Assembly (NCBI GenBank): GCA_032622095.1
Contig: CP136064.1
Span: forward strand, 1,178,001-1,242,000
Origin: Siphonodentalium dalli
Lineage: Eukaryota; Mollusca; Scaphopoda; Gadilida; Siphonodentaliidae
Length of the DNA: 64,000 nucleotides
Reading direction: 5' to 3'
The notes beneath the pieces are model-generated. The model was not told where the DNA came from, did not search any database, and saw nothing but the letters and a program-made list of their open reading frames with translations. Position numbers and translations under genes: made by a program. Below, one piece after another: positions 1 through 64,000 of this stretch. The stretch's first letter is position 1. Each line of letters starts with the position of its first letter.

Positions 1-72
1 TGTAACTCAACTTAAAAGGAGATAAGTAACACAGTCACCAACTTAAAGGGGTGTCTGATTTAGACTGGTTCC
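1..72 (+). repeat. Partial monomer, 3' end only, cut by the window edge
   Basis: These 72 bases match the last 72 positions of the reference monomer (158-229). They carry a private gtaactcaac and ttaaaaggagataag. The linker reads ggggtgtctgattta, which joins the gggg of one linker haplotype to the tgtctgattta normally found after aagag. The rest of the unit lies outside the window. Confidence 0.93.
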
Positions 73-2594
73 ATGGTGGAGTACGGTTGGATATTTTCAA
101 TTTGGCGCATGTTTCTCCATACCGCGCCATGTCAAATCTGGCCATATCCGAATCGGGTTGTCATTTACAATGACTGCAGAAAATAAATATCTTCATGTTG
201 GAATGCAAATGTATGTTTAAAGGAACAGATGTATCTCAACTTAAAGGAACATAGGTAACACAGTCACCAACTTAAAGAGGTGTCTGATTTAGACTGGTTC
301 CATGGTGGAGTACGGTTGGATATTTTCTATTTGGCGCATGTTTCTCCATACCGCGCCATGTCAAATCTGGCCATATCCGAATCGGGTTGTCATTTACAAT
401 GACTACAGAAAATAAATATCTTCATGTTGGAATGCAAATGTATGTTTAAAGGAACAGATGTATCTCAACTTAAAGGGACATAAGTAACACAGTCACCAAC
501 TTTAAGGGGTATCTGCTATAGACTGGTTCCATGGTGGAGTACGGTTGGATATTTACTATTTGGCGCATGTTTCTCCATACCGCGCCATGTCAAATCTGGC
601 CATATCCGAATTGGGTTGTCATTTACAATGACTACAGAAAATAAATATCTTCATGTTGGAATGCAAATGTATGTTTAAAGAAACAGATGTATCTCAACTT
701 AAAGGGACATAATAAGTAGCACAGTCACCAACTTTAAGGGGTATCTGCTATAGACTGGTTCCATGGTGGAGTACTGTTGGATATTTTCAATTTGGCGCAT
801 GTTTCTCCCTACCGCGCCATGTCAAATCTGGCCATATCCGAATCGGGTTGTCATTTACAATGACTACAGAAAATAGATATCTTCATGTTGGAATGCAAAT
901 GTATGTTTAAAGGAACAGATGTATCTCAACTTAAAGGGACATAAGTAACACAGTCACCAACTTAAAGGGGTATCTGCTATAGACTGGTTCCATGGTGGAG
1001 TACGGTTGGATATTTTCAATTTGGCGCATGTTTCTCCATACCGCGCCATGTCAAATCTGGCCATATCCGAATCGGGTTGTCATTTACAATGACTGCAGAA
1101 AATATATATCTTCATGGTGGAATGCAAATGTATGTTTAAAGGAACAGATGTATCTCAACTTAAAGGGACATAAGTAACACAGTCACCAACTTAAAGAGGT
1201 GTCTGATTTAGACTGGTTCCATGGTGGAGTACGGTTGGATATTTTCTATTTAGCGCATGTTTCTCCATACCGCGCCATGTCAAATCTGGCCATATCCGAA
1301 TCGGGTTGTCATTTACAATGATTACAGAAAATAAATATCTTCATGTTGGAATGCAAATGTATGTTTAGAGGAACAGATGTATCTCAACTTAAAGGGACAT
1401 AAGTAACACAGTCACCAACTTTAAGGGGTATCTGCTATAGACTGGTTCCATGGTGGAGTACGGTTGGATATTTACTATTTGGCGCATGTTTCTCCATACC
1501 GCGCCATGTCAAATCTGGCCATATCCGAATCGGGTTGTCATTTACAATGACTACAGAAAATAAATATCTTCATGTTGGAATGCAAATGTATGTTTAAAGG
1601 AACAGATGTATCTCAACTTAAAGGGACATAAGTAACACAGTCACCAACTTAAAGGGGTATCTGCTATAGACTGGTTCCATGGTGGAGTACGGTTGGATAT
1701 TTTCAATTTGGCGCATGTTTCTCCATACCGCGCCATGCCAAATCTGGCCCTATCCGAATCGGGTTGTCATTTACAATGACTGCAGAAAATATATATCTTC
1801 ATGGTGGAATGCAAATGTATGTTTAAAGGAACAGATGTATCTCAACTTAAAGGGACATAAGTAACACAGTCACCAACTTTAAGGGGTATCTGCTATAGAC
1901 TGGTTCCATGGTGGAGTACGGTTGGATATTTTCAATTTGGCGCATGTTTCTCCATACCGCGCCATGTCAAATCTGGCCCTATCCGAATCGGGTTGTCATT
2001 TACAATGACTGCAGAAAATATATATCTTCATGTTGGAATGCAAATGTATGTTTAAAGAAACAGATGTATCTCAACTTAAAGCGACATAAGTAGCACAGTC
2101 ACCAACTTTAAGGGGTATCTGCTATAGACTGGTTCCATGGTGGAGTACTGTTGGATATTTTCAATTTGGCGCATGTTTCTCCCTACCGCGCCATGTCAAA
2201 TCTGGCCATATCCGAATCGGGTTGTCATTTACAATGACTACAGAAAATAAATATCTTCATGTTGGAATGCAAATGTATGTTTAAAGGAACAGGTGTATCT
2301 CAACTTAAAGGGAGATAAGTAACACAGTCACCAACTTTAAGGGGTATCTGCTATAGACTGGTTCCATGGTGGAGTACGGTTGGATATTTTCAATTTGGCG
2401 CATGTTTTTCCATACCGCGCCATGTCAAATCTGGCCATATCCGAATCGGGTTGTCATTTACAATGACTACAGAAAATAAATATCTTCATGTTGGAAAGCA
2501 AATGTATGTTTAAAGGAACAGATGTATCTCAACTTAAAGGGACATAAGTAACACAGTCACCAACTTTAAGGGGTATCTGCTATAGACTGGTTCC
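73..2594 (+). repeat. Left-edge monomers, eleven units without local HOR copy
   Basis: Order: N-P-M-J-A-L-M-S-(S/I mix)-J-O. I see no second copy of this eleven-unit order inside the window, although the single types recur. The stretch carries more private changes than most others. Examples are gaattggg near 607, aatagatatc near 872 where other copies have aataaatatc or aatatatatc, catgccaaatc near 1735, and aaagcgacat near 2078. The unit at 1908 mixes the ccctatcc, aaagaaac and tagcac of I with catgttgg of E. It may be a recombinant. Confidence 0.85.
705..716 (+). repeat. 3-bp insertion in a monomer tail
   Basis: The tail of the unit that starts at 531 reads acataataagtagcac where other copies read acataagtagcac. 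Three bases (a taa, aat or ata, depending on alignment) are gained, and that unit is 232 bp long. This is the only insertion I found in 279 units. Confidence 0.9.
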
Positions 2595-4197
2595 ATGGTG
2601 GAGTACGGTTGGAAATTTTCAATTTGGCGCATGTTACTCCATACCGCGCCATGTCAAATCTGGCCATATCCGAATCGGGTTGTCATTTACAATAACTGCA
2701 GAAAATATATATCTTCATGGTGGAATGCAAATGTATGTTTAAAGGAACAGATGTATCTCAACTTAAAGGGACATAAGTAACACAGTCACCAACTTAAAGG
2801 GGTATCTGCTATAGACTGGTTCCATGGTGGAGTACGGTTGGATATTTTCAATTTGGTGCATGTTTCTCCATACCGCGCCATGTCAAATCTGGCCATATCC
2901 GAATCGGGTTGTCATTTACAATGACTACAGAAAATAAATATCTTCATGTTGGAATGCAAATGTATGTTTAAAGAAACAGATGTATCTCAACTTAAAGGGA
3001 CATAAGTAACACAGTCACCAACTTTAAGGGGTATCTGCTATAGACTGGTTCCATGGTGGAGTACTGTTGGATATTTTTAATTTAGCGCATGTTTCTCCCT
3101 ACCGCGCCATGTCAAATCTGGCCATATCCGAATCGGGTTGTCATTTACAATGACTGCAGAAAATATATATCTTCATGGTGGAATGCAAATGTATGTTTAA
3201 AGGAACAGATGTATCTCAACTTAAAGGGACATAAGTAACACAGTCACCAACTTTAAGGGGTATCTGCTATAGACTGGTTCCATGGTGGAGTACGGTTGGA
3301 TATTTTCAATTTGGCGCATGTTTCTCCATACCGCGCCATGTCAAATCTGGCCATATCCGAATCGGGTTGTCATTTACAATGACTGCAGAAAATATATATC
3401 TTCATGTTGGAATGCAAATGAATGTTTAAAGGAACAGATGTATCTCAACTTAAAGGGACATAAGTAACACCGTCACCAACTTTAAGGGGTATCTGCTATA
3501 GACTGGTTACATGGTGGAGTACGGTTGGATATTTTCAATTTTGCGCATGTTTCTCCATACCGCGCCATGTCAAATCTGGCCATATCCGAATCGGGTTGTC
3601 ATTTACAATGACTGCAGAAAATAAATATCTTCATGTTGGAATGCAAATGTATGTTTAAAGGAACAGATGTATCTCAACTTAAAGGGACATAAGTAACACA
3701 GTCACCAACTTTAAGGGGTATCTGCTATAGACTGGTTCCATGGTGGAGTACGGTTGGATATTTACTATTTGGCGCATGTTTCTCCATACCGCGCCATGTC
3801 AAATCTGGCCATATCCGAATCGGGTTGTCATTTACAATGACTACAGAAAATAAATATCTTCATGTTGGAATGCAAATGTATGTTTAAAGGAAGAGATGTA
3901 TCTCAACTTAAAGGGACATAAGTAACACCGTCACCAACTTTAAGGAGTATCTGCTATAGACTGGTTCCATGGTGGAGTACTGTTGCATATTTTCAATTTG
4001 GCGCATGTTTTTTCATACCGCGCCATGTCAAATCTGGCCATATCCGAATCGGGTTGTCATTTTCAATGACTACAGAAAATAAATATCTTCATGTTGGAAT
4101 GCAAATGTATGTTTAAAGGAACAGATGTATCTCAACTTAAAGGGACATAAGTAACACAGTCACCAACTTAAAGGGGTATCTGCTATAGACTGGTTCC

Positions 4198-4383
4198 ATG
4201 GTGGAGTACGGTTGGATATTTTCAATTTGGCGCATGTTTCTCCATACCGCGCCATGTCAAATCTGGCCATATCCGAATCGGGTTGTCATTTACAATGACT
4301 GCAGAAAATATATATCTTCATGGTGGAATGCAAATGTATGTTTAAAGGAACAGATGTATCTCAACTTAAAGGGACATAAGTAA
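4198..4383 (+). other. 61-codon repeat-borne open frame, judged non-coding (representative)
   Basis: From the ATG of the boundary CCATGG, an open frame of 61 codons ends at TAA. About 128 of the 279 monomers have it. In the others, most often T114A turns codon 38 from TAT to TAA. Other closures are a TGA at codon 6 (4427, 7404) and at codon 36 (21373), and a TAG in X units (3053, 6030). The period is not a multiple of three, so neighbouring frames cannot be joined. Common substitutions change residues freely, such as Trp42 to Cys. I see no signal peptide, membrane segment or known motif. Transcription of the satellite is possible, but there is no evidence of translation. Confidence 0.85.
4228..4254. 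repeat. GC-rich 6-bp dyad inside the monomer (representative)
   Basis: TGGCGC at 4228-4233 and GCGCCA at 4249-4254 are perfect reverse complements around a 15-base spacer (monomer positions 31-36 and 52-57). The dyad is present in most units. Variants break the left arm (tttagcgc, ttggagc, ttggtgc, ttttgcgc, tatgcgc) or the right arm (gcgcaatg, gcgacatg, gcgctatg). I saw no compensating change in the other arm, so there is no sign that a hairpin is conserved. Confidence 0.75.
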
Positions 4384-4404
4384 CACAGTCACCAACTTAA
4401 AGGG
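4362..4404 (+). repeat. Internal 12-bp direct repeat in the monomer (representative)
   Basis: CAACTTAAAGGG occurs at 4362-4373 and again at 4393-4404, 31 bp apart. A related TTTAAAGG lies 24 bp upstream of the first TTAAAGG. Many units have ctttaaggg in the second copy, which is a one-base shift of the same motif. The 3' third of the monomer may have grown from shorter repeats. That origin is an inference. Confidence 0.75.
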
Positions 4405-5571
4405 GTATCTGCTATAGACTGGTTCCATGGTGGAGTACGGTTGAATATTTTCAATTTGGCGCATGTTTCTCCATACCGCGCCATGTCAAATCTGGCCCTA
4501 TCCGAATCGGGTTGTCATTTACCATGACTGCAGAAAATATATATCTTCATGGTGGAATGCAAATGTATGTTTAAAGGAACAGATGTCTCTCAACTTAAAG
4601 GGACATAAGTAACACAGTCACCAACTTTAAGGGGTATCTGCTATAGACTGGTTCCATGGTGGAGTACGGTTGGATATTTTCAATTTGGAGCATGTTTCTC
4701 CATACCGCGCCATGTCAAATCTGGCCATATCCGAATCGGGTTGTCATTTACAATGACTGCAGAAAATAAATATCTTCATGTTGGAATGCAAATGAATGTT
4801 TGAAGGAACAGATGTATCTCAACTTAAAGGGACATAAGTAACACCGTCACCAACTTTAAGGGGTATCTGCTATAGACTGGTTACATGGTGGAGTACGGTT
4901 GGATATTTTCAATTTTGCGCATGTTTCTCCATACCGCGCCATGTAAAATCTGGCCATATCCGAATCGGGTTGTCATTTACAATGACTGCAGAAAATAAAT
5001 ATCTTCATGTTGGAATGCAAATGTATGTTTAAAGGAACAGATGTATCTCAACTTAAAGGGACATAAGTAACACAGTCACCAACTTAAAGAGGTGTCTGAT
5101 TTAGACTGGTTCCATGGTGGAGTACGGTTGGATATTTTCTATTTAGCGCATGTTTCTCCATACCGCGTCATGTCAAATCTGGCCATATCCGAATCGGGTT
5201 GTCATTTACAATGATTACAGAAAATAAATATCTTCATGTTGGAATGCAAATGTATGTTTAGAGGAACAGATGTATCTCAACTTAAAGGGACATAAGTAAC
5301 ACAGTCACCAACTTTAAGGGGTATCTGCTATAGACTGGTTCCATGGTGGAGTACGGTTGGATATTTACTATTTGGCGCATGTTTCTCCATACCGCGCCAT
5401 GTCAAATCTGGCCATATCCGAATCGGGTTGTCATTTACAATGACTACAGAAAATAAATATCTTCATGTTGGAATGCAAATGTATGTTTAAAGGAACAGAT
5501 GTATCTCAACTTAAAGGGACATAAGTAACACAGTCACCAACTTAAAGGGGTATCTGCTATAGACTGGTTCC

Positions 5572-8548
5572 ATGGTGGAGTACGGTTGGAAATTTTCAAT
5601 TTGGCGCATGTTACTCCATACCGCGCCATGTCAAATCTGGCCATATCCGAATCGGGTTGTCATTTACAATAACTGCAGAAAATATATATCTTCATGGTGG
5701 AATGCAAATGTATGTTTAAAGGAACAGATGTATCTCAACTTAAAGGGACATAAGTAACACAGTCACCAACTTAAAGGGGTATCTGCTATAGACTGGTTCC
5801 ATGGTGGAGTACGGTTGGATATTTTCAATTTGGTGCATGTTTCTCCATACCGCGCCATGTCAAATCTGGCCATATCCGAATCGGGTTGTCATTTACAATG
5901 ACTACAGAAAATAAATATCTTCATGTTGGAATGCAAATGTATGTTTAAAGAAACAGATGTATCTCAACTTAAAGGGACATAAGTAACACAGTCACCAACT
6001 TTAAGGGGTATCTGCTATAGACTGGTTCCATGGTGGAGTACTGTTGGATATTTTTAATTTAGCGCATGTTTCTCCCTACCGCGCCATGTCAAATCTGGCC
6101 ATATCCGAATCGGGTTGTCATTTACAATGACTGCAGAAAATATATATCTTCATGGTGGAATGCAAATGTATGTTTAAAGGAACAGATGTATCTCAACTTA
6201 AAGGGACATAAGTAACACAGTCACCAACTTTAAGGGGTATCTGCTATAGACTGGTTCCATGGTGGAGTACGGTTGGATATTTTCAATTTGGCGCATGTTT
6301 CTCCATACCGCGCCATGTCAAATCTGGCCATATCCGAATCGGGTTGTCATTTACAATGACTGCAGAAAATATATATCTTCATGTTGGAATGCAAATGAAT
6401 GTTTAAAGGAACAGATGTATCTCAACTTAAAGGGACATAAGTAACACCGTCACCAACTTTAAGGGGTATCTGCTATAGACTGGTTACATGGTGGAGTACG
6501 GTTGGATATTTTCAATTTTGCGCATGTTTCTCCATACCGCGCCATGTCAAATCTGGCCATATCCGAATCGGGTTGTCATTTACAATGACTGCAGAAAATA
6601 AATATCTTCATGTTGGAATGCAAATGTATGTTTAAAGGAACAGATGTATCTCAACTTAAAGGGACATAAGTAACACAGTCACCAACTTTAAGGGGTATCT
6701 GCTATAGACTGGTTCCATGGTGGAGTACGGTTGGATATTTACTATTTGGCGCATGTTTCTCCATACCGCGCCATGTCAAATCTGGCCATATCCGAATCGG
6801 GTTGTCATTTACAATGACTACAGAAAATAAATATCTTCATGTTGGAATGCAAATGTATGTTTAAAGGAAGAGATGTATCTCAACTTAAAGGGACATAAGT
6901 AACACCGTCACCAACTTTAAGGAGTATCTGCTATAGACTGGTTCCATGGTGGAGTACTGTTGCATATTTTCAATTTGGCGCATGTTTTTCCATACCGCGC
7001 CATGTCAAATCTGGCCATATCCGAATCGGGTTGTCATTTTCAATGACTACAGAAAATAAATATCTTCATGTTGGAATGCAAATGTATGTTTAAAGGAACA
7101 GATGTATCTCAACTTAAAGGGACATAAGTAACACAGTCACCAACTTAAAGGGGTATCTGCTATAGACTGGTTCCATGGTGGAGTACGGTTGGATATTTTC
7201 AATTTGGCGCATGTTTCTCCATACCGCGCCATGTCAAATCTGGCCATATCCGAATCGGGTTGTCATTTCCAATGACTGCAGAAAATATATATCTTCATGG
7301 TGGAATGCAAATGTATGTTTAAAGGAACAGATGTATCTCAACTTAAAGGGACATAAGTAACACAGTCACCAACTTAAAGGGGTATCTGCTATAGACTGGT
7401 TCCATGGTGGAGTACGGTTGAATATTTTCAATTTGGCGCATGTTTCTCCATACCGCGCCATGTCAAATCTGGCCCTATCCGAATCGGGTTGTCATTTACC
7501 ATGACTGCAGAAAATATATATCTTCATGGTGGAATGCAAATGTATGTTTAAAGGAACAGATGTCTCTCAACTTAAAGGGACATAAGTAACACAGTCACCA
7601 AATTTAAGGGGTATCTGCTATAGACTGGTTCCATGGTGGAGTACGGTTGGATATTTTCAATTTGGAGCATGTTTCTCCATACCGCGCCATGTCAAATCTG
7701 GCCATATCCGAATCGGGTTGTCATTTACAATGACTGCAGAAAATAAATATCTTCATGTTGGAATGCAAATGAATGTTTGAAGGAACAGATGTATCTCAAC
7801 TTAAAGGGACATAAGTAACACCGTCACCAACTTTAAGGGGTATCTGCTATAGACTGGTTACATGGTGGAGTACGGTTGGATATTTTCAATTTTGCGCATG
7901 TTTCTCCATACCGCGCCATGTAAAATCTGGCCATATCCGAATCGGGTTGTCATTTACAATGACTGCAGAAAATAAATATCTTCATGTTGGAATGCAAATG
8001 TATGTTTAAAGGAACAGATGTATCTCAACTTAAAGGGACATAAGTAACACAGTCACCAACTTAAAGAGGTGTCTGATTTAGACTGGTTCCATGGTGGAGT
8101 ACGGTTGGATATTTTCTATTTAGCGCATGTTTCTCCATACCGCGCCATGTCATATCTGGCCATATCCGAATCGGGTTGTCATTTACAATGATTACAGAAA
8201 ATAAATATCTTCATGTTGGAATGCAAATGTATGTTTAGAGGAACAGATGTATCTCAACTTAAAGGGACATAAGTAACACAGTCACCAACTTTAAGGGGTA
8301 TCTGCTATAGACTGGTTCCATGGTGGAGTACGGTTGGATATTTACTATTTGGCGCATGTTTCTCCATACCGCGCCATGTCAAATCTGGCCATATCCGAAT
8401 CGGGTTGTCATTTACAATGACTACAGAAAATAAATATCTTCATGTTGGAATGCAAATGTATGTTTAAAGGAACAGATGTATCTCAACTTAAAGGGACATA
8501 AGTAACACAGTCACCAACTTAAAGGGGTATCTGCTATAGACTGGTTCC
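5572..8548 (+). repeat. 13-monomer HOR, copy 2 (2977 bp)
   Basis: This repeats the order of 2595-5571 monomer by monomer: A(variant)-B-X-E(variant)-D2-M-R-A-C-K-D2-L-M. Private changes include tttccaatg near 7268, accaaattt near 7599 and catatctgg near 8152. The pattern stops at 8549, where an E-U-P-Q-J string begins, so 8549 is an HOR boundary. Confidence 0.93.
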
Positions 8549-9693: not shown

Positions 9694-11754
9694 ATGGTGG
9701 AGTACGGTTGGATATTTTCAATTTGGCGCATGTTTCTCCATACCGCGCCATGTCAAATCTGGCCATATCCGAATCGGGTTGTCATTTACAATGACTGCAG
9801 AAAATATATATCTTCATGGTGGAATGCAAATGTATGTTTAAAGGAACAGATGTATCTCAACTTAAAGGGACATAAGTAACACAGTCACCAACTTAAAGGG
9901 GTATCTGCTATAGACTGGTTCCATGGTGGAGTACTGTTGGATATTTTCAATTTGGCGCATGTTTCTCCCTACCGCGCCATGTCAAATCTGGCCATATCCG
10001 AATCGGGTTGTCATTTACAATGACTACAGAAAATAAATATCTTCATGTTGGAATGCAAATGTATGTTTAAAGGAACAGATGTATCTCAACTTAAAGGGAC
10101 ATAAGTAACACAGTCACCAACTTAAAGGGGTATCTGCTATAGACTGGTTCCATGGTGGAGTACGGTTGGATATTTTCAATTTGGCGCATGTTTCTCCATA
10201 CCGCGCAATGTCAAATCTGGCCATATCCGAATCGGGTTGTCATTTACAATGACTGCAGAAAATATATATCTTCATGGTGGAATGCAAATGTATGTTTAAA
10301 GGAACAGATGTATCTCAACTTAAACGGACATAAGTAACACAGTCACCAACTTAAAGGGGTATCTGCTATAGACTGGTTCCATGGTGGAGTACGGTTGGAT
10401 ATTTTCAATTTGGCGCATGTTTCTCCATACCGCGCCATGTCAAATCTGGCCCTATCCGAATCGGGTTGTCATTTACAATGACTGCAGAAAATATATATCT
10501 TCATGGTGGAATGCAAATGTATGTTTAAAGGAACAGATGTATCTCAACTTAAAGGGACATAAGTAACACAGTCACCAACTTAAAGGGGTATCTGCTATAG
10601 ACTGGTTCCATGGTGGAGTACGGTTGGATATTTTCAATTTGGCGCATGTTTCTCCATACCGCGCCATGTCAAATCTGGCCATATCCGAATCGGGTTGTCA
10701 TTTACAATGACTGCAGAAAATATATATCTTCATGTTGGAATGCAAATGTATGTTTAAAGGAACAGATGTATCTCAACTTAAAGGGACATAAGTAACACAG
10801 TCACCAACTTTAAGGGGTATCTGCTATAGACTGGTTACATGGTGGAGTACGGTTGGATATTTTCAATTATGCGCATGTTTCTCCATACCGCGCCATGTCA
10901 AATCTGGCCATATCCGAATCGGGTTGTCATTTACAATGACTGCAGAAAATAAATATCTTCATGTTGGAATGCAAATGTATGTTTAAAGGAACAGATGTAT
11001 CTCAACTTAAAGGAACATAAGTAACACAGTCACCAACTTAAAGAGGTGTCTGATTTAGACTGGTTCCATGGTGGAGTACGGTTGGATATTTTCTATTTGG
11101 CGCATGTTTCTCCATACCGCGCCATGTCAAATCTGGCCATATCCGAATCGGGTTGTCATTTACAATGACTACAGAAAATAAATATCTTCATGTTGGAATG
11201 CAAATGTATGTTTAAAGGAACAGATGTATCTCAACTTAAAGGGACATAAGTAACACAGTCACCAACTTTAAGGGGTATCTGCTATAGACTGGTTCCATGG
11301 TGGAGTACGGTTGGATATTTTCTATTTGGCGCATGTTTCTCCATACTGCGCCATGTCAAATCTGGCCATATCCGAATCGGGTTGTCATTTACAATGACTA
11401 CAGAAAATAAATATCTTCATGTTGGAATGCAAATGTATGTTTAAAGAAACAGATGTATCTCAACTTAAAGGAACATAAGTAACACAGTCACCAACTTTAA
11501 GGGGTATCTGCTATAGACTGGTTCCATGGTGGAGTACTGTTGGATATTTTCAATTTGGCGCATGTTTCTCCCTACCGCGCCATGTCAAATCTGGCCATAT
11601 CCGAATCGGGTTGTCATTTACAATGACTACAGAAAATAAATATCTTCATGTTGGAATGCAAATGTATGTTTAAACGAACAGATGTATCTCAACTTAAAGG
11701 GACATAAGTAACACAGTCACCAACTTAAAGGGGTATCTGCTATAGACTGGTTCC
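9694..11754 (+). repeat. Nine-monomer HOR A-J-T-S-E-U-P-Q-J (2061 bp)
   Basis: Nine units, 9 x 229 = 2061 bp. Subfamily T at 10152 (gcgcaatg plus aaacggaca) is distinctive and recurs at 13587, 16793, 18854, 21144, 27555, 29387, 32131 and 34877, always directly before an S or E unit. The next segment starts with S at 11755, as though A-J-T had been removed from a second copy. Confidence 0.9.
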
Positions 11755-11983
11755 ATGGTGGAGTACGGTTGGATATTTTCAATTTGGCGCATGTTTCTCC
11801 ATACCGCGCCATGTCAAATCTGGCCCTATCCGAATCGGGTTGTCATTTACAATGACTGCAGAAAATATATATCTTCATGGTGGAATGCAAATGTATGTTT
11901 AAAGGAACAGATGTATCTCAACTTAAAGGGACATAAGTAACACAGTCACCAACTTAAAGGGGTATCTGCTATAGACTGGTTCC
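11755..11983 (+). repeat. S monomer at a shortened HOR boundary
   Basis: The neighbouring copies read J-A-J-T-S-E, but here J is followed directly by S and then E. An in-register loss of three monomers (A-J-T), or an exchange between A and S, explains this. The two differ at few sites, so I cannot place the join. Confidence 0.75.
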
Positions 11984-14900: not shown

Positions 14901-15189
14901 TAAAGGAACATAAGTAACACAGTCACCAACTTTAAGGGGTATCTGCTATAGACTGGTTCCATGGTAGAGTACTGTTGGATATTTTCAATTTGGCGCATGT
15001 TTCTCCCTACCGCGCCATGTCAAATCTGGCCATATCCGAATCGGGTTGTCATTTACAATGACTACAGAAAATAAATATCTTCATGTTGGAATGCAAATGT
15101 ATGTTTAAACGAACAGATGTATCTCAACTTAAAGGGACATAAGTAACACAGTCACCAACTTAAAGGGGTATCTGCTATAGACTGGTTCC
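11984..15189 (+). repeat. 14-monomer HOR, copy 1 (3206 bp)
   Basis: Order: E-U-P-Q-J-A-J-T-S-E-(E/U mosaic)-P-Q-J. The markers that prove the period are taatggg in the first P tail (near 12610), agggatatctg before the first J (near 12876), the mosaic unit at 14274, and tggtagagtac in the last J (near 14966). All recur 3206 bp (14 x 229) downstream. Confidence 0.93.
14274..14502 (+). repeat. E/U mosaic monomer
   Basis: Markers alternate along the unit. The preceding linker aatattaagg and gttccatgg are E-like, aattatgcgca is U-like, the open tatata is E-like, and the tail aaaggaacat is U-like. The separate parents stand side by side at 19541 (E) and 19770 (U). A single crossover cannot give this pattern. 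Two or more exchanges, or a short conversion tract, are needed. A second copy at 17480 comes from the 14-mer duplication. Confidence 0.85.
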
Positions 15190-18100: not shown

Positions 18101-18395
18101 TCAACTTAAAGGAACATAAGTAACACAGTCACCAACTTTAAGGGGTATCTGCTATAGACTGGTTCCATGGTAGAGTACTGTTGGATATTTTCAATTTGGC
18201 GCATGTTTCTCCCTACCGCGCCATGTCAAATCTGGCCATATCCGAATCGGGTTGTCATTTACAATGACTACAGAAAATAAATATCTTCATGTTGGAATGC
18301 AAATGTATGTTTAAACGAACAGATGTATCTCAACTTAAAGGGACATAAGTAACACAGTCACCAACTTAAAGGGGTATCTGCTATAGACTGGTTCC
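15190..18395 (+). repeat. 14-monomer HOR, copy 2 (3206 bp)
   Basis: It has the same order as 11984-15189, with taatggg near 15817, agggatatctg near 16080, the mosaic unit at 17480 and tggtagagtac near 18170. Internally the 14-mer is two related half-blocks, one with and one without A-J-T-S, so it is itself a composite of a shorter unit. It ends where A-J-T-S resumes at 18396. Confidence 0.93.
17480..17708 (+). repeat. E/U mosaic monomer, duplicated copy
   Basis: It has the same marker combination as the unit at 14274, 3206 bp away. This makes inheritance by block duplication far likelier than a second independent mosaic. Confidence 0.85.
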
Positions 18396-28928: not shown

Positions 28929-29796
28929 ATGGTGGAGTACGGTTGGATATTTTCAATTTGGCGCATGTTTCTCCATACCGCGCCATGTCAAATCTGGCCA
29001 TATCCGAATCGGGTTGTCATTTACAATGACTGCAGAAAATATATATCTTCATGGTGGAATGCAAATGTATGTTTAAAGGAACAGATGTATCTCAACTTAA
29101 AGGGACATAAGTAACACAGTCACCAACTTAAAGGGGTATCTGCTATAGACTGGTTCCATGGTGGAGTACTGTTGGATATTTTCAATTTGGCGCATGTTTC
29201 TCCCTACCGCGCCATGTCAAATCTGGCCATATCCGAATCGGGTTGTCATTTACAATGACTACAGAAAATAAATATCTTCATGTTGGAATGCAAATGTATG
29301 TTTAAAGGAACAGATGTATCTCAACTTAAAGGGACATAAGTAACACAGTCACCAACTTAAAGGGGTATCTGCTATAGACTGGTTCCATGTTGGAGTACGG
29401 TTGGATATTTTCAATTTGGCGCATGTTTCTCCATACCGCGCAATGTCAAATCTGGCCATATCCGAATCGGGTTGTCATTTACAATGACTGCAGAAAATAT
29501 ATATCTTCATGGTGGAATGCAAATGTATGTTTAAAGGAACAGATGTATCTCAACTTAAACGGACATAAGTAACACAGTCACCAACTTAAAGGGGTATCTG
29601 CTATAGACTGGTTCCATGGTGGAGTACGGTTGGATATTTTCAATTTGGCGCATGTTTCTCCATACCGCGCCATGTCAAATCTGGCCCTATCCGAATCGGG
29701 TTGTCATTTACAATGACTGCAGAAAATATATATCTTCATGGTGGAATGCAAATGTATGTTTAAAGGAACAGATGTATCTCAACTTAAAGGGACATA

Positions 29797-29812
29797 AGTA
29801 ACAGTCACCAAC
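29797..29812 (+). repeat. 2-bp deletion marker after S, copy 1 of 3
   Basis: The tail reads agtaacagtcacc where others read agtaacacagtcacc, so one CA is lost from a short ACACA run. The following unit starts 227 bp downstream. The same loss lies at the same place in the next two blocks (near 32545 and 35291), so it predates their duplication. Confidence 0.93.
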
Positions 29813-31626: not shown

Positions 31627-31642
31627 AGTAACAGTCACCAAC
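31627..31642 (+). repeat. 2-bp deletion marker after J, unique to one block
   Basis: The same CA loss occurs in a J tail at the end of block copy 1. The matching J tails at 34376 and elsewhere are full length. It arose separately or was copied locally from an S tail. The short ACACA run makes slippage plausible. Confidence 0.92.
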
Positions 31643-51133: not shown

Positions 51134-52049
51134 ATGGTGGAGTACGGTTGGATATTTTCAATTTGGCGCATGTTTCTCCATACCGCGCCATGTCAAATCT
51201 GGCCATATCCGAATCGGGTTGTCATTTACAATGACTGCAGAAAATATATATCTTCATGGTGGAATGCAAATGTATGTTTAAAGGAACAGATGTATCTCAA
51301 CTTAAAGGGACATAAGTAACACAGTCACCAACTTAAAGGGGTATCTGCTATAGACTGGTTCCATGGTGGAGTACTGTTGGATATTTTCAATTTGGCGCAT
51401 GTTTCTCCCTACCGCGCCATGTCAAATCTGGCCATATCCGAATCGGGTTGTCATTTACAATGACTACAGAAAATAAATATCTTCATGTTGGAATGCAAAT
51501 GTATGTTTAAAGGAACAGATGTATCTCAACTTAAAGGGACATAAGTAACACAGTCACCAACTTAAAGGGGTATCTGCTATAGACTGGTTCCATGGTGGAG
51601 TACGGTTGGATATTTTCAATTTGGCTCATGTTTCTCCATACCGCGCCATGTCAAATCTGGCCCTATCCGAATCGGGTTGTCATTTACAATGACTGCAGAA
51701 AATATATATCTTCATGGTGGAATGCAAATGTATGTTTAAAGGAACAGATGTATCTCAACTTAAAGGGACATAAGTAACACAGTCACCAACTTTAAGGGGT
51801 ATCTGCTATAGACTGGTTCCATGGTGGAGTACGGTTGGATATTTTCAATTTGGCGCATGTTTCTCCATACCGCGCCATGTCAAATCTGGCCATATCCGAA
51901 TCGGGTTGTCATTTACAATGACTGCAGAAATTATATATCTTCATGTTGGAATGCAAATGTATGTTTAAAGGAACAGATGTATCTCAACTTAAAGGGACAT
52001 AAGTAACACAGTCACCAACTTTAAGGGGTATCTGCTATAGACTGGTTAC
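47699..52049 (+). repeat. 19-monomer HOR, copy 1 (4351 bp)
   Basis: Order: H-I-(J/O)-C-D-A-C-K-D2-L-M-N-P-Q-J-A-J-S(variant)-E(variant). The S variant has ttggctcatg near 51622. The E variant has gaaattatatatc near 51927. Both recur 4351 bp (19 x 229) later. H follows E directly at 52050, so F and G, present at 47241 and 47470, are missing at the junction. Confidence 0.92.
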
Positions 52050-55000
52050 ATGGTGGAGTACGGTTGGATATTTTCAATTTTGCGCATGTTTCTCCATACC
52101 GCGCCATGTCAAATCTGCCCATATCCGAATCGGGTTGTCATTTACAATGACTACAGAAAATAAATATCTTCATGTTGGAATGCAAATGTATGTTTAAAGG
52201 AACAGATGTATCTCAACTTAAAGGGACATAAGTAACACAGTCACCAACTTAAAGAGGTGTCTGATTTAGACTGGTTCCATGGTGGAGTACGGTTGGATAT
52301 TTTCTATTTGGCGCATGTTTCTCCATACCGCGCCATGTCAAATCTGGCCCTATCCGATTCGGGTTGTCATTTACAATGACTGCAGAAAATATATATCTTC
52401 ATGGTGGAATGCAAATGTATGTTTAAAGAAACAGATGTATCTCAACTTAAAGGGACATAAGTAGCACAGTCACCAACTTTAAGGGGTATCTGCTATAGAC
52501 TGGTTCCATGGTGGAGTACTGTTGGATATTTTCAATTTGGCGCATGTTTCTCCCTACCGCGCCATGTCAAATCTGGCCATATCCGAATCGGGTTGTCATT
52601 TACAATGACTACAGAAAATAAATATCTTCATGTTGGAAAGCAAATGTATGTTTAAAGGAACAGATGTAACTCAACTTAAAGGGACATAAGTAACACAGTC
52701 ACCAACTTAAAGGGGTATCTGCAATAGACTGGTTCCATGGTGGAGTACGGTTGGATATTTTCAATTTGGCGCATGTTTCTCCATACCGCGCCATGTCAAA
52801 TCTGGCCCTATCCGAATCGGGTTGTCATTTACCATGACTGCAGAAAATATATATCTTCATGGTGGAATGCAAATGTATGTTTAAAGGAACAGATGTATCT
52901 CAACTTAAAGGGACATAAGTAACACCGTCACCAACTTTAAGGGGTATCTGCTATAGACTGGTTACATGGTGGAGTACGGTTGGATATTTTCAATTTTGCG
53001 CATGTTTCTCCATACCGCGCCATGTAAAATCTGGCCATATCCGAATCGGGTTGTCATTTTCAATGACTACAGAAAATAAATATCTTCATGTTGGAATGCA
53101 AATGTATGTTTAAAGGAACAGATGTATCTCAACTTAAAGGGACATAAGTAACACAGTCACCAACTTAAAGGGGTATCTGCTATAGACTGGTTCCATGGTG
53201 GAGTACGGTTGGATATTTTCAATTTGGCGCATGTTTCTCCATACCGCGCCATGTCAAATCTGGCCATATCCGAATCGGGTTGTCATTTACAATGACTGCA
53301 GAAAATATATATCTTCATGGTGGAATGCAAATGTATGTTTAAAGGAACAGATGTATCTCAACTTAAAGGGACATAAGTAACACAGTCACCAACTTAAAGG
53401 GGTATCTGCTATAGACTGGTTCCATGGTGGAGTACGGTTGGATATTTTCAATTTGGCGCATGTTTCTCCATACCGCGCCATGTCAAATCTGGCCATATCC
53501 GAATCGGGTTGTCATTTACCATGACTGCAGAAAATATATATCTTCATGGTGGAATGCAAATGTATGTTTAAAGGAACAGATGTATCTCAACTTAAGGGGA
53601 CATAAGTAACACAGTCACCAACTTTAAGGGGTATCTGCTATAGACTGGTTCCATGATGGAGTACGGTTGGATATTTTCAATTTGGAGCATGTTTCTCCAT
53701 ACCGCGCCATGTCAAATCTGGCCATATCCGAATCGGGTTGTCATTTACAATGACTGCAGAAAATAAATATCTTCATGTTGGAATGCAAATGAATGTTTGA
53801 AGGAACAGATGTATCTCAACTTAAAGGGACATAAGTAACACCGTCACCAACTTTAAGGGGTATCTGCTATAGACTGGTTACATGGTGGAGTACGGTTGGA
53901 TATTTTCAATTTTGCGCATGTTTCTCCATACCGCGCCATGTAAAATCTGGCCATATCCGAATCGGGTTGTCATTTACAATGACTGCAGAAAATAAATATC
54001 TTCATGTTGGAATGCAAATGTATGTTTAAAGGAACAGATGTATCTCAACTTAAAGGGACATAAGTAACACAGTCACCAACTTAAAGAGGTGTCTGATTTA
54101 GACTGGTTCCATGGTGGAGTACGGTTGGATATTTTCTATTTAGCGCATGTTTCTCCATACCGCGCCATGTCAAATCTGGCCATATCCGAATCGGGTTGTC
54201 ATTTACAATGACTACAGAAAATAAATATCTTCATGTTGGAATGCAAATGTATGTTTAGAGGAACAGATGTATCTCAACTTAAAGGGACATAAGTAACACA
54301 GTCACCAACTTTAAGGGGTATCTGCTATAGACTGGTTCCATGGTGGAGTACGGTTGGATATTTACTATTTGGCGCATGTTTCTCCATACCGCGCCATGTC
54401 AAATCTGGCCATATCCGAATCGGGTTGTCATTTACAATGACTACAGAAAATAAATATCTTCATGTTGGAATGCAAATGTATGTTTAAAGGAACAGATGTA
54501 TCTCAACTTAAAGGGACATAAGTAACACAGTCACCAACTTAAAGGGGTATCTGCTATAGACTGGTTCCATGGTGGAGTACGGTTGGATATTTTCAATTTG
54601 GCGCATGTTTCTCCATACCGCGCCATGTCAAATCTGGCCATATCCGAATCGGGTTGTCATTTACAATGACTGCAGAAAATAAATATCTTCATGTTGGAAT
54701 GCAAATGTATGTTTAAAGGAACAGATGTATCTCAACTTAAAGGAACATAAGTAACACAGTCACCAACTTAAAGAGGTGTCTGATTTAGACTGGTTCCATG
54801 GTGGAGTACGGTTGGATATTTTCTATTTGGCGCATGTTTCTCCATACCGCGCCATGTCAAATCTGGCCATATCCGAATCGGGTTGTCATTTACAATGACT
54901 ACAGAAAATAAATATCTTCATGTTGGAATGCAAATGTATGTTTAAAGGAACAGATGTATCTCAACTTAAAGGGACATAAGTAACACAGTCACCAACTTTA

Positions 55001-56400
55001 AGGGGTATCTGCTATAGACTGGTTCCATGGTGGAGTACGGTTGGATATTTTCTATTTGGCGCATGTTTCTCCATACTGCGCCATGTCAAATCTGGCCATA
55101 TCCGAATCGGGTTGTCATTTACAATGACTACAGAAAATAAATATCTTCATGTTGGAATGCAAATGTATGTTTAAAGAAACAGATGTATCTCAACTTAAAG
55201 GGACATAAGTAACACAGTCACCAACTTTAAGGGGTATCTGCTATAGACTGGTTCCATGGTGGAGTACTGTTGGATATTTTCAATTTGGCGCATGTTTCTC
55301 CCTACCGCGCCATGTCAAATCTGGCCATATCCGAATCGGGTTGTCATTTACAATGACTACAGAAAATAAATATCTTCATGTTGGAATGCAAATGTATGTT
55401 TAAAGGAACAGATGTATCTCAACTTAAAGGGACATAAGTAACACAGTCACCAACTTAAAGGGGTATCTGCTATAGACTGGTTCCATGGTGGAGTACGGTT
55501 GGATATTTTCAATTTGGCGCATGTTTCTCCATACCGCGCCATGTCAAATCTGGCCATATCCGAATCGGGTTGTCATTTACAATGACTGCAGAAAATATAT
55601 ATCTTCATGGTGGAATGCAAATGTATGTTTAAAGGAACAGATGTATCTCAACTTAAAGGGACATAAGTAACACAGTCACCAACTTAAAGGGGTATCTGCT
55701 ATAGACTGGTTCCATGGTGGAGTACTGTTGGATATTTTCAATTTGGCGCATGTTTCTCCCTACCGCGCCATGTCAAATCTGGCCATATCCGAATCGGGTT
55801 GTCATTTACAATGACTACAGAAAATAAATATCTTCATGTTGGAATGCAAATGTATGTTTAAAGGAACAGATGTATCTCAACTTAAAGGGACATAAGTAAC
55901 ACAGTCACCAACTTAAAGGGGTATCTGCTATAGACTGGTTCCATGGTGGAGTACGGTTGGATATTTTCAATTTGGCTCATGTTTCTCCATACCGCGCCAT
56001 GTCAAATCTGGCCCTATCCGAATCGGGTTGTCATTTACAATGACTGCAGAAAATATATATCTTCATGGTGGAATGCAAATGTATGTTTAAAGGAACAGAT
56101 GTATCTCAACTTAAAGGGACATAAGTAACACAGTCACCAACTTTAAGGGGTATCTGCTATAGACTGGTTCCATGGTGGAGTACGGTTGGATATTTTCAAT
56201 TTGGCGCATGTTTCTCCATACCGCGCCATGTCAAATCTGGCCATATCCGAATCGGGTTGTCATTTACAATGACTGCAGAAATTATATATCTTCATGTTGG
56301 AATGCAAATGTATGTTTAAAGGAACAGATGTATCTCAACTTAAAGGGACATAAGTAACACAGTCACCAATATTAAGGGGTATCTGCTATAGACTGGTTCC
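52050..56400 (+). repeat. 19-monomer HOR, copy 2 (4351 bp)
   Basis: It follows 47699-52049 unit by unit, including gtaactcaac in the J/O hybrid (near 52669), ccatgatgg in K, ttggctcatg and gaaattatatatc. The last tail is aatattaagg rather than actttaagg, and F-G-H follow. The duplication therefore ends in that tail. Confidence 0.92.
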
Positions 56401-57316
56401 ATGGTGGAGTACGGTTGGATATTTTCAATTTGGCGCATGTTTCTCCATATCGCGCCATGTCAAATCTGGCCATATCCGAATCGGGTTGTCATTTACAATG
56501 ACTGCAGAAAATATATATCTTCATGTTGGAATGCAAATGTATGTTTAAAGGAACAGATGTATCTCAACTTAAAGGGACATAAGTAACACCGTCACCAACT
56601 TTAAGGGGTATCTGCTATAGACTGGTTACATGGTGGAGTACGGTTGGATATTTGCAATTTTGCGCATGTTTCTCCATACCGCGACATGTCAAATCTGGCC
56701 ATATCCGAATCGGGTTGTCATTTACATTGACTGCAGAAAATATATATCTTCATGTTGGAATGCAAATGTATGTTTAAAGGAACAGATGTATCTCAATTTA
56801 AAGGGACATAAGTAACATAGTCACCAACTTTAAGGGGTATCTGCTATAGACTGGTTACATGGTGGAGTACGGTTGGATATTTTCAATTTTGCGCATGTTT
56901 CTCCATACCGCGCCATGTCAAATCTGGCCATATCCGAATCGGGTTGTCATTTACAATGACTGCAGAAAATAAATATCTTCATGTTGGAATGCAAATGTAT
57001 GTTTAAAGGAACAGATGTATCTCAACTTAAAGGGACATAAGTAACACAGTCACCAACTTTAAGGGGTATCTGCTATAGACTGGTTCCATGGTGGAGTACG
57101 GTTGGATATTTTCAATTTGGTGCATGTTTTTCCATACCGCGCCATGTCAAATCTGGCCATATCCGAATCGGGTTGTCATTTACAATGACTACAGAAAATA
57201 AATATCTTCATGTTGGAAAGCAAATGTATGTTTAAAGGAACAGATGTATCTCAACTTAAAGGGACATAAGTAACACAGTCACCAACTTAAAGGGGTATCT
57301 GCAATAGACTGGTTCC
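56401..57316 (+). repeat. Four-monomer segment F-G-H-O
   Basis: G at 56630 carries two changes that mark the rest of the window: ttacattgac and ctcaatttaaagg. It also has a private aacatagtc. H at 56859 has ctggcca and the closed taaata with gcag. This four-unit string is the closing part of the 12-mer that follows. Confidence 0.9.
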
Positions 57317-59835
57317 ATGGTGGAGTACGGTTGGATATTTTCAATTTGGCGCATGTTTCTCCATACCGCGCCATGTCAAATCTGGCCATATCCGAATCGG
57401 GTTGTCATTTACAATGACTGCAGAAAATATATATCTTCATGGTGGAATGCAAATGTATGTTTAAAGGAACAGATGTATCTCAACTTAAAGGGACATAAGT
57501 AACACAGTCACCAACTTAAAGGGGTATCTGCTATAGACTGGTTCCATGGTGGAGTACGGTTGGATATTTTCAATTTGGTGCATGTTTCTCCATACCGCGC
57601 CATGTCAAATCTGGCCATATCCGAATCGGGTTGTCATTTACAATGACTACAGAAAATAAATATCTTCATGTTGGAATGCAAATGTATGTTTAAAGAAACA
57701 GATGTATCTCAACTTAAAGGGACATAAGTAACACAGTCACCAACTTTAAGGGGTATCTGCTATAGACTGGTTCCATGGTGGAGTACTGTTGCATATTTTC
57801 AATTTGGCGCATGTTTTTCCATACCGCGCCATGTCAAATCTGGCCATATCCGAATCGGGTTGTCATTTTCAATGACTACAGAAAATAAATATCTTCATGT
57901 TGGAATGCAAATGTATGTTTAAAGGAACAGATGTATCTCAACTTAAAGGGACATAAGTAACACAGTCACCAACTTAAAGGGGTATCTGCTATAGACAGGT
58001 TCCATGGTGGAGTACGGTTGGATATTTTCAATTTGGCGCATGTTTCTCCATACCGCGCCATGTCAAATCTGGCCCTATCCGAATCGGGTTGTCATTTACC
58101 ATGACTGCAGAAAATATATATCTTCATGGTGGAATGCAAATGTATGTTTAAAGGAACAGATGTATCTCAACTTAAAGGGACATAAGTAACACCGTCACCA
58201 ACTTTAAGGGGTATCTGCTATAGACTGGTTACATGGTGGAGTACGGTTGGATATTTTCAATTTTGCGCATGTTTCTCCATACCGCGCCATGTAAAATCTG
58301 GCCATATCCGAATCGGGTTGTCATTTTCAATGACTACAGAAAATAAATATCTTCATGTTGGAATGCAAATGTATGTTTAAAGGAACAGATGTATCTCAAC
58401 TTAAAGGGACATAAGTAACACAGTCACCAACTTAAAGGGGTATCTGCTATAGACTGGTTCCATGGTGGAGTACTGTTGGATATTTTCAATTTGGCGCATG
58501 TTTCTCCCTACCGCGCCATGTCAAATCTGGCCATATCCGAATCGGGTTGTCATTTACAATGACTACAGAAAATAAATATCTTCATGTTGGAATGCAAATG
58601 TATGTTTAAAGGAACAGATGTATCTCAACTTAAAGGGACATAAGTAACACAGTCACCAACTTAAAGGGGTATCTGCTATAGACTGGTTCCATGGTGGAGT
58701 ACGGTTGGATATTTTCAATTTGGCGCATGTTTCTCCATACCGCGCCATGTCAAATCTGGCCCTATCCGAATCGGGTTGTCATTTACAATGACTGCAGAAA
58801 ATATATATCTTCATGGTGGAATGCAAATGTATGTTTAAAGGAACAGATGTATCTCAACTTAAAGGGACATAAGTAACACAGTCACCAACTTTAAGGGGTA
58901 TCTGCTATAGACTGGTTCCATGGTGGAGTACGGTTGGATATTTTCAATTTGGCGCATGTTTCTCCATACCGCGCCATGTCAAATCTGGCCATATCCGAAT
59001 CGGGTTGTCATTTACAATGACTGCAGAAATTATATATCTTCATGTTGGAATGCAAATGTATGTTTAAAGGAACAGATGTATCTCAACTTAAAGGGACATA
59101 AGTAACACAGTCACCAATATTAAGGGGTATCTGCTATAGACTGGTTCCATGGTGGAGTACGGTTGGATATTTTCAATTTGGCGCATGTTTCTCCATATCG
59201 CGCCATGTCAAATCTGGCCATATCCGAATCGGGTTGTCATTTACATTGACTGCAGAAAATATATATCTTCATGTTGGAATGCAAATGTATGTTTAAAGGA
59301 ACAGATGTATCTCAATTTAAAGGGACATAAGTAACACAGTCACCAACTTTAAGGGGTATCTGCTATAGACTGGTTACATGGTGGAGTACGGTTGGATATT
59401 TTCAATTTTGCGCATGTTTCTCCATACCGCGCCATGTCAAATCTGGCCATATCCGAATCGGGTTGTCATTTACAATGACTGCAGAAAATAAATATCTTCA
59501 TGTTGGAATGCAAATGTATGTTTAAAGGAACAGATGTATCTCAACTTAAAGGGACATAAGTAACACAGTCACCAACTTTAAGGGGTATCTGCTATAGACT
59601 GGTTCCATGGTGGAGTACGGTTGGATATTTTCAATTTGGTGCATGTTTTTCCATACCGCGCCATGTCAAATCTGGCCATATCCGAATCGGGTTGTCATTT
59701 ACAATGACTACAGAAAATAAATATCTTCATGTTGGAAAGCAAATGTATGTTTAAAGGAACAGATGTATCTCAACTTAAAGGGACATAAGTAACACAGTCA
59801 CCAACTTAAAGGGGTATCTGCAATAGACTGGTTCC
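57317..59835 (+). repeat. 11-monomer HOR with fused F/G (2519 bp)
   Basis: Order: A-B-R-C-D-J-S-E(variant)-(F/G hybrid)-H-O. R (gttgcata, tttttcc, tttcaatg) was last seen at 6946. C is preceded by a private gacaggttcc near 57994, which recurs at 60513 and 63261. It is one monomer shorter than the next copy because F and G are fused. Confidence 0.93.
59149..59377 (+). repeat. F/G hybrid monomer
   Basis: The 5' part has F's catatcgcg and its intact gcgccatg, and lacks G's tttgcaatttt. The 3' part has G's ttacattgac and ctcaatttaaagg. F and G are separate neighbours at 56401/56630 and 61668/61897. The crossover lies between about positions 55 and 97 of the monomer, and exactly one repeat length is lost. 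Confidence 0.93.
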
Positions 59836-62583
59836 ATGGTGGAGTACGGTTGGATATTTTCAATTTGGCGCATGTTTCTCCATACCGCGCCATGTCAAAT
59901 CTGGCCATATCCGAATCGGGTTGTCATTTACAATGACTGCAGAAAATATATATCTTCATGGTGGAATGCAAATGTATGTTTAAAGGAACAGATGTATCTC
60001 AACTTAAAGGGACATAAGTAACACAGTCACCAACTTAAAGGGGTATCTGCTATAGACTGGTTCCATGGTGGAGTACGGTTGGATATTTTCAATTTGGTGC
60101 ATGTTTCTCCATACCGCGCCATGTCAAATCTGGCCATATCCGAATCGGGTTGTCATTTACAATGACTACAGAAAATAAATATCTTCATGTTGGAATGCAA
60201 ATGTATGTTTAAAGAAACAGATGTATCTCAACTTAAAGGGACATAAGTAACACAGTCACCAACTTTAAGGGGTATCTGCTATAGACTGGTTCCATGGTGG
60301 AGTACTGTTGCATATTTTCAATTTGGCGCATGTTTTTCCATACCGCGCCATGTCAAATCTGGCCATATCCGAATCGGGTTGTCATTTTCAATGACTACAG
60401 AAAATAAATATCTTCATGTTGGAATGCAAATGTATGTTTAAAGGAACAGATGTATCTCAACTTAAAGGGACATAAGTAACACAGTCACCAACTTAAAGGG
60501 GTATCTGCTATAGACAGGTTCCATGGTGGAGTACGGTTGGATATTTTCAATTTGGCGCATGTTTCTCCATACCGCGCCATGTCAAATCTGGCCCTATCCG
60601 AATCGGGTTGTCATTTACCATGACTGCAGAAAATATATATCTTCATGGTGGAATGCAAATGTATGTTTAAAGGAACAGATGTATCTCAACTTAAAGGGAC
60701 ATAAGTAACACCGTCACCAACTTTAAGGGGTATCTGCTATAGACTGGTTACATGGTGGAGTACGGTTGGATATTTTCAATTTTGCGCATGTTTCTCCATA
60801 CCGCGCCATGTAAAATCTGGCCATATCCGAATCGGGTTGTCATTTTCAATGACTACAGAAAATAAATATCTTCATGTTGGAATGCAAATGTATGTTTAAA
60901 GGAACAGATGTATCTCAACTTAAAGGGACATAAGTAACACAGTCACCAACTTAAAGGGGTATCTGCTATAGACTGGTTCCATGGTGGAGTACTGTTGGAT
61001 ATTTTCAATTTGGCGCATGTTTCTCCCTACCGCGCCATGTCAAATCTGGCCATATCCGAATCGGGTTGTCATTTACAATGACTACAGAAAATAAATATCT
61101 TCATGTTGGAATGCAAATGTATGTTTAAAGGAACAGATGTATCTCAACTTAAAGGGACATAAGTAACACAGTCACCAACTTAAAGGGGTATCTGCTATAG
61201 ACTGGTTCCATGGTGGAGTACGGTTGGATATTTTCAATTTGGCGCATGTTTCTCCATACCGCGCCATGTCAAATCTGGCCCTATCCGAATCGGGTTGTCA
61301 TTTACAATGACTGCAGAAAATATATATCTTCATGGTGGAATGCAAATGTATGTTTAAAGGAACAGATGTATCTCAACTTAAAGGGACATAAGTAACACAG
61401 TCACCAACTTTAAGGGGTATCTGCTATAGACTGGTTCCATGGTGGAGTACGGTTGGATATTTTCAATTTGGCGCATGTTTCTCCATACCGCGCCATGTCA
61501 AATCTGGCCATATCCGAATCGGGTTGTCATTTACAATGACTGCAGAAATTATATATCTTCATGTTGGAATGCAAATGTATGTTTAAAGGAACAGATGTAT
61601 CTCAACTTAAAGGGACATAAGTAACACAGTCACCAATATTAAGGGGTATCTGCTATAGACTGGTTCCATGGTGGAGTACGGTTGGATATTTTCAATTTGG
61701 CGCATGTTTCTCCATATCGCGCCATGTCAAATCTGGCCATATCCGAATCGGGTTGTCATTTACAATGACTGCAGAAAATATATATCTTCATGTTGGAATG
61801 CAAATGTATGTTTAAAGGAACAGATGTATCTCAACTTAAAGGGACATAAGTAACACCATCACCAACTTTAAGGGGTATCTGCTATAGACTGGTTACATGG
61901 TGGAGTACGGTTGGATATTTGCAATTTTGCGCATGTTTCTCCATACCGCGACATGTCAAATCTGGCCATATCCGAATCGGGTTGTCATTTACATTGACTG
62001 CAGAAAATATATATCTTCATGTTGGAATGCAAATGTATGTTTAAAGGAACAGATGTATCTCAATTTAAAGGGACATAAGTAACACAGTCACCAACTTTAA
62101 GGGGTATCTGCTATAGACTGGTTACATGGTGGAGTACGGTTGGATATTTTCAATTTTGCGCATGTTTCTCCATACCGCGCCATGTCAAATCTGGCCATAT
62201 CCGAATCGGGTTGTCATTTACAATGACTGCAGAAAATAAATATCTTCATGTTGGAATGCAAATGTATGTTTAAAGGAACAGATGTATCTCAACTTAAAGG
62301 GACATAAGTAACACAGTCACCAACTTTAAGGGGTATCTGCTATAGACTGGTTCCATGGTGGAGTACGGTTGGATATTTTCAATTTGGTGCATGTTTTTCC
62401 ATACCGCGCCATGTCAAATCTGGCCATATCCGAATCGGGTTGTCATTTACAATGACTACAGAAAATAAATATCTTCATGTTGGAAAGCAAATGTATGTTT
62501 AAAGGAACAGATGTATCTCAACTTAAAGGGACATAAGTAACACAGTCACCAACTTAAAGGGGTATCTGCAATAGACTGGTTCC
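59836..62583 (+). repeat. 12-monomer HOR, full copy (2748 bp)
   Basis: Order: A-B-R-C-D-J-S-E(variant)-F-G-H-O, with F and G separate. F's tail here reads aacaccatcacc near 61855 where other F tails read aacaccgtcacc. Otherwise it matches the 11-mer before it at nearly every diagnostic site. Confidence 0.93.
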
Positions 62584-64000
62584 ATGGTGGAGTACGGTTG
62601 GATATTTTCAATTTGGCGCATGTTTCTCCATACCGCGCCATGTCAAATCTGGCCATATCCGAATCGGGTTGTCATTTACAATGACTGCAGAAAATATATA
62701 TCTTCATGGTGGAATGCAAATGTATGTTTAAAGGAACAGATGTATCTCAACTTAAAGGGACATAAGTAACACAGTCACCAACTTAAAGGGGTATCTGCTA
62801 TAGACTGGTTCCATGGTGGAGTACGGTTGGATATTTTCAATTTGGTGCATGTTTCTCCATACCGCGCCATGTCAAATCTGGCCATATCCGAATCGGGTTG
62901 TCATTTACAATGACTACAGAAAATAAATATCTTCATGTTGGAATGCAAATGTATGTTTAAAGAAACAGATGTATCTCAACTTAAAGGGACATAAGTAACA
63001 CAGTCACCAACTTTAAGGGGTATCTGCTATAGACTGGTTCCATGGTGGAGTACTGTTGCATATTTTCAATTTGGCGCATGTTTTTCCATACCGCGCCATG
63101 TCAAATCTGGCCATATCCGAATCGGGTTGTCATTTTCAATGACTACAGAAAATAAATATCTTCATGTTGGAATGCAAATGTATGTTTAAAGGAACAGATG
63201 TATCTCAACTTAAAGGGACATAAGTAACACAGTCACCAACTTAAAGGGGTATCTGCTATAGACAGGTTCCATGGTGGAGTACGGTTGGATATTTTCAATT
63301 TGGCGCATGTTTCTCCATACCGCGCCATGTCAAATCTGGCCCTATCCGAATCGGGTTGTCATTTACCATGACTGCAGAAAATATATATCTTCATGGTGGA
63401 ATGCAAATGTATGTTTAAAGGAACAGATGTATCTCAACTTAAAGGGACATAAGTAACACCGTCACCAACTTTAAGGGGTATCTGCTATAGACTGGTTACA
63501 TGGTGGAGTACGGTTGGATATTTTCAATTTTGCGCATGTTTCTCCATACCGCGCCATGTAAAATCTGGCCATATCCGAATCGGGTTGTCATTTTCAATGA
63601 CTACAGAAAATAAATATCTTCATGTTGGAATGCAAATGTATGTTTAAAGGAACAGATGTATCTCAACTTAAAGGGACATAAGTAACACAGTCACCAACTT
63701 AAAGGGGTATCTGCTATAGACTGGTTCCATGGTGGAGTACGGTTGGATATTTTCAATTTGGCGCATGTTTCTCCATACCGCGCCATGTCAAATCTGGCCA
63801 TATCCGAATCGGGTTGTCATTTACAATGACTGCAGAAAATATATATCTTCATGGTGGAATGCAAATGTATGTTTAAAGGAACAGATGTATCTCAACTTAA
63901 AGGGACATAAGTAACACAGTCACCAACTTAAAGGGGTATCTGCTATAGACTGGTTCCATGGTGGAGTACGGTTGGATATTTTCAATTTGGCGCATGTTTC
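62584..64000 (+). repeat. Third copy of the 12-mer, cut by the window edge
   Basis: Order: A-B-R-C-D-A, then 43 bases of a further unit (63958-64000). The sixth unit (63729) is A, not the J expected from the two copies before. This copy therefore changes class after D, resembling the A-B-C-D-A order of 40142. Truncation prevents following it further. Confidence 0.9.
63958..64000 (+). repeat. Partial monomer, 5' end only, cut by the window edge
   Basis: The first 43 positions match the reference A unit exactly. The array clearly continues beyond the window. Confidence 0.95.

Follow-up and report, generated by a model that had tools for sequence, protein, structure and literature searches.

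The window, by which we mean the whole 64,000-nucleotide stretch of DNA that was analysed, is filled from end to end (1..64000, forward strand) by one continuous, same-strand, head-to-tail array of a 229-bp satellite (TRF: period 229, 279.5 copies, 96% matches), with a G+C content of approximately 39%. Cutting the array at a single 229-bp phase yields 278 complete monomers, of which 272 are 229 bp long, four 227 bp, one 228 bp and one 232 bp. As all 278 fall within 227-232 bp, the array is in register throughout, as duplication in phase by whole monomers demands. The single 232-bp monomer (586-817), the only one of that length among the 278, carries a 3-bp insertion. The complete monomers comprise 95 distinct sequences, and random pairs within the array differ on average at 3.3% of sites, or about 7.5 bases. 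Clustering sets apart a minor class of 29 of the 278 monomers; linked variants at columns 162 and 164 are carried by exactly these 29 and by no others, and variants at columns 153 and 157 are in strong linkage with them (monomer columns 153-164).

The satellite itself has few distinguishing features. Its single-strand fold is unremarkable (z -0.49), inverted repeats within two monomers do not exceed 9 nt, and the ten strongest periods in the A/T dinucleotide spectrum of the consensus include none near 10 bp. Rfam gave zero matches up to E 1 for positions 1-3000, and no complete open reading frame of at least 70 aa overlaps 1-4000. Exact matches to a 29-base core of the satellite were absent from prokaryotic genome contigs and viral contigs, as were matches to 574 bases of it from plasmids and phages, two results that say little about a eukaryotic satellite. 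In the excerpted passages of five papers (PMC10615816, PMC10569240, PMC10405479, PMC11573200, PMC9026859), the only other 229-bp satellite monomer named is SatE_mex of the fish Astyanax mexicanus, given there without a sequence to compare; the same set gives 354 bp for the melon centromere motif. From the kind of sequence, we would guess that the array is centromeric.

An earlier note on this DNA proposed that the higher-order period of the array changes repeatedly along its length, and our analysis confirms such a mosaic: no single higher-order period spans the 64 kb. The best single lag is 12 monomers, at which near-identical partners occur in 47 of 266 pairs, and on this ground a canonical higher-order repeat (HOR) array with a constant period was rejected. 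A constant period is what the earlier note had named as the refutation of its reading, and neither the phase split nor the lag analysis shows one. When only runs of four or more monomers are counted, 257 of the 278 have a near-identical partner at some lag below 60. At a single lag (again below 60), up to 18 consecutive monomers are identical to their partners, compared to 1-3 in 200 shuffles of the monomer order.

The duplicated blocks were traced mainly as lag runs, and the end of each block was placed at the end of its matched run plus one lag; all lie on the forward strand. From left to right, base-level lag runs identify a 13-monomer tandem duplication at 2568..8144 (1.87 copies, 3 differences) and a 6-monomer duplication at 10326..12613, with about 1.7 copies at 0 mismatches and, once younger events are collapsed, 2.22 copies with 3 mismatches. 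These are followed by a 14-monomer tandem duplication at 11905..18520 (2.06 copies, 0 differences in 3455 aligned columns). Inside and past this block, at 16112..19570, lies an older, partial 9-monomer duplication (1.68 copies, a run of 6.1 monomers), which reaches about three copies in the collapse to 94 monomers described below, and four in that to 86, after younger events are removed. This run is cleaner than the lag-9 signal between the 13- and 14-monomer blocks, which comprises only five monomers from 8604. A weak, old 10-monomer lag at 17535..21427 (seven monomers matched, 0.86 differences per monomer) corresponds to the final collapse, which shows the greatest divergence (22 differences) and is the least certain step. 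A 12-monomer tandem duplication occupies 22059..27579 (2.01 copies, 2 differences), and its second copy is overlapped by an 8-monomer duplication at 25925..29389 (1.89 copies).

A second 12-monomer block, at 28442..36455, is present in three copies (2.92). In its middle copy, the monomer starting at 31501 carries a 2-bp deletion that is also present in the monomer four repeats on and that monomer's lag-12 counterparts (together those from 29671, 32415 and 35161), possibly as a result of a short gene conversion. Further right are a 13-monomer duplication at 36478..42270 (1.95 copies, 3 differences), a 24-monomer duplication at 39408..50392 (a block of 5.5 kb, 2.00 copies, 1 difference) and a 19-monomer duplication at 47581..56369 (2.02 copies, 0 differences in 4498 aligned columns). 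The 13- and 24-monomer duplications (together 36478-50392) are bounded in one common monomer, m171, where the runs at lags 13 and 37 have the same limits and the run at lag 24 begins; this shared boundary may be coincidental or reflect one complex event. Lags 11, 12 and 23, together with the collapse, resolve the stretch at 56685..63740 into 11- and then 12-monomer duplications that differ by a single monomer, with three copies in all, the 11-monomer part having 2.02 copies.

In total, copy number is approximately two (1.87-2.06) in eight of the nine main blocks and 2.92 in the ninth, with weaker or older lags of 6, 9, 10 and 15 beside them. The copied blocks range from 6 to 24 monomers (1.4-5.5 kb), and each adjoins its source. 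All ten periods listed in the earlier note have a counterpart, eight of them strong (13, 14, 12, 12, 13, 24, 19 and 11/12) and two, 9 and 10, weak; the 6- and 8-monomer duplications lie outside its list. Its wording of "tandem block periods" needs qualification: most are single two-copy duplications instead of a repeating HOR, though the second 12 and the 11/12 reach three copies and the older 9 three or four.

Between copies, the main blocks diverge at 0-0.11% of columns. The nine together show 15 differing columns in 31,394 aligned, four of which represent the 2-bp deletion in the middle copy of the three-copy block, counted twice. Seven of the 15, these four among them, have alleles found in three or more monomers and eight are near-private, that is, with an allele present in at most two monomers. 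On the question of gene-conversion tracts shorter than a monomer, linkage decays with distance at P 0.04, but at P 0.375 when the tight block at columns 146-164 is left out.

The edges of the blocks are sharp. The first monomer beyond the matched run differs from its counterpart at that lag at 5-14 positions in all 29 of 29 values (mean 8.6), which are not all independent, and this mismatch resembles that of random pairs, with means of 7.5 in the array and 7.9 in the collapsed core. The second and third flanking monomers show 0 to 18 differences, with one single 0. As the flanks are as unlike as random pairs, nothing points to an earlier register at the lag of the block, and each block looks like the joining of two ordinary monomers at equal phase. 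The candidate junction intervals are scattered over the monomer (e.g., columns 56-146, 0-42 and 176-201), and a fixed junction site is not apparent among the collapsed events, which are few. Junction identity in the first six collapses extends over 90, 207, -10, 42, 118 and 25 columns; these lengths are not set apart from those expected at random (median 49.5, quartiles 27-82) and give no sign of selection for long junction homology.

The history of the array was approached by greedy collapse, in which the least diverged tandem duplication is removed first. With blocks of at least 4 monomers admitted in the first three stages and of at least 3 in the last, 15 nested collapses reduce the 278 monomers to a core of 94, with block sizes of 19, 14, 24, 11, 12, 12, 12, 13, 6, 8, 13, 12, 9, 9 and 10 (mean 12.3); several of these steps are repeat steps within three-copy blocks. 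This supports the view, also put forward in the earlier note, that several generations of duplication are still visible. Under other settings, 14 steps led to a core of 104 monomers; where single-monomer steps were permitted, 26 steps led to one of 86, with the 24 now read as 23, only one 13 left and a second 11 appearing. The main young blocks recur across settings and the exact history is not unique; the order of events is one that we infer and do not see directly. Duplications of at least 3 monomers number 14 in the real array, while among 40 shuffles 34 had none, five had one and one had two. The events counted are duplications only, as deletions leave no countable trace in one haplotype. 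Within the core of 94, neighbours at lags 1-9 are no more alike than random pairs; values at lags 10, 15, 25 and 30 are slightly and weakly low, and may be remnants of still older events.

The one-phase array, the block copies, their sharp edges and nesting, and the unequal divergence among blocks are direct observations. Repeats that are 97% identical were joined true to phase, and the adjacent stretch that was copied measures 1.4-5.5 kb, a combination that points to out-of-register homologous repair. We consider it probable that the array turns over in this way, through one in-register tandem duplication after another, each of 6-24 monomers. The end of a broken strand, most likely at a collapsed replication fork, would re-anneal to a monomer that lies several repeats behind the correct one and copy the block anew, as in break-induced replication; alternatively, the copy could arise by unequal exchange between sister chromatids. 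Either way, each event would unite two ordinary monomers of approximately 97% identity in matching phase, a step of which homologous recombination is capable. The pathway is inferred, and both routes fit the window. Our preference for break-induced replication derives from findings in other species, as given in section 8 of the review PMC12321929: in Arabidopsis, insertions from adjacent sequence outnumber deletions, which is read there as consistent with break-induced replication, and changes in human arrays depend on PIF1 and RAD52. The earlier note had suggested unequal exchange or slippage. Repeated, layered duplication is upheld by our data, but slippage in the narrow sense, over a few bases, is unlikely given copied blocks of this length and junctions in differing parts of the monomer.

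Block sizes that centre near 12 (the mean over the 15 collapses), a 24 that is twice 12 and the position of lag 12 as the commonest near-identical lag would all be expected if a single ancestral HOR of about 12 monomers had drifted in period by single-monomer gains and losses, with that register guiding the exchanges. Against this, at the block lag the immediate flanks differ like random pairs, and lag 12 is not favoured in the collapsed core, where the weakly low lags are others. We therefore regard an ancestral 12-monomer register as improbable. An origin in extrachromosomal circles, amplified by rolling circle and then reinserted, is less probable still: in-register tandem copies would be expected here too, but this route predicts many copies per unit, whereas two copies are seen in eight main units and three in the ninth, and the older 9 does not exceed about four.

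The blocks could also have been repeated or mis-joined by the assembler, and the absence of differences between the 14-monomer copies and between the 19-monomer copies, together with the one difference in the 24-monomer block, would be in line with such an error. These three blocks could be assembly expansions. For the array as a whole we rate an artefact as unlikely, marginally more so than the ancestral register, since four blocks (both 13s, the first 12 and the 8) show 1-3 differences each, with at least one near-private change in every one of them. Moreover, the duplicated units, at most 5.5 kb in size, are short relative to modern long reads.

A separate question is whether duplications have a minimum size. 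Identical adjacent monomers are absent from the window, near-identical pairs at lags 1-5 number 23 (400 shuffles averaged 51.9 and never fell below 36), and collapsing recovered no events of 3-5 monomers. To simulate this, a core of 104 monomers was grown by random duplications and point mutations, without deletions, in 40 runs per size law. Sizes drawn evenly over 1-24 gave a mean of 26.5 pairs at lags 1-5, with 23 or fewer in 16 of 40 runs and no 3-5-monomer event in 10 of 40; for sizes even over 1-31 the corresponding runs were 21 and 13, for a geometric law with mean 12 they were 13 and 2, and for sizes of 6-24 they were 27 and 32 (each out of 40). Large duplications therefore account for most of the short-lag deficit, and only under the geometric law is the absence of 3-5-monomer events unusual. 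Smaller events were found in the real array (10 of one monomer and one of two), but 30 shuffles gave 15-33 events each, all of 1-2 monomers in the one shuffle for which sizes were listed, so that one- and two-monomer duplications are indistinguishable from chance by the collapsing method. The lack of duplications of 1-5 monomers is only suggestive. It is conceivable, though we consider it rather doubtful, that repair duplicates only blocks of at least about 6 monomers (1.4 kb), a floor perhaps set by the extent of resection or the re-annealing distance behind the fork, so that neighbours avoid becoming copies. If it held in the full array and in relatives, such a floor would constrain the repair mechanism.

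Taken together, the window is a clear example of a known mode of satellite array evolution. Single duplication events can be read off the array, and their sizes, edges and order measured in turn; such event-by-event measurement is what is needed to separate models of satellite turnover. As in human alpha-satellite HOR arrays, monomers occur in blocks that were copied as units, in layered expansions. Active human HOR arrays keep one period. They extend over 340 kb to 4.8 Mb in the excerpted accounts, whereas no period in the window goes beyond three, or at most about four, copies, and its monomers differ by only about 3%. The earlier note's contrast with the human arrays is fair in this respect, but constant period does not hold as a general rule, as the in-frame duplications of Arabidopsis illustrate (PMC12321929).

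Both the unequal-exchange model of Smith (1976) and the break-induced-replication model of Rice (2020), as described in the excerpted text of PMC8997354, involve in-register tandem duplications able to nest, and the window fits either. The pattern agrees with reports on plant centromeres. In mutation-accumulation lines of Arabidopsis, in-frame indels of 1-31 monomers are described for the centromeres (Dong et al., 2025, as reported in section 8 of the review PMC12321929), a range that includes the 6-24-monomer tandem blocks of the window. As in the CEN178/CEN180 arrays described there, copies are in register and derive from adjoining sequence, and higher-order blocks arise from small in-frame indels. 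In contrast to Arabidopsis, where according to the same review HORs are mostly of 2 or 3 monomers, the blocks recovered here comprise 6-24, and the monomer is of 229 bp instead of 178 bp.
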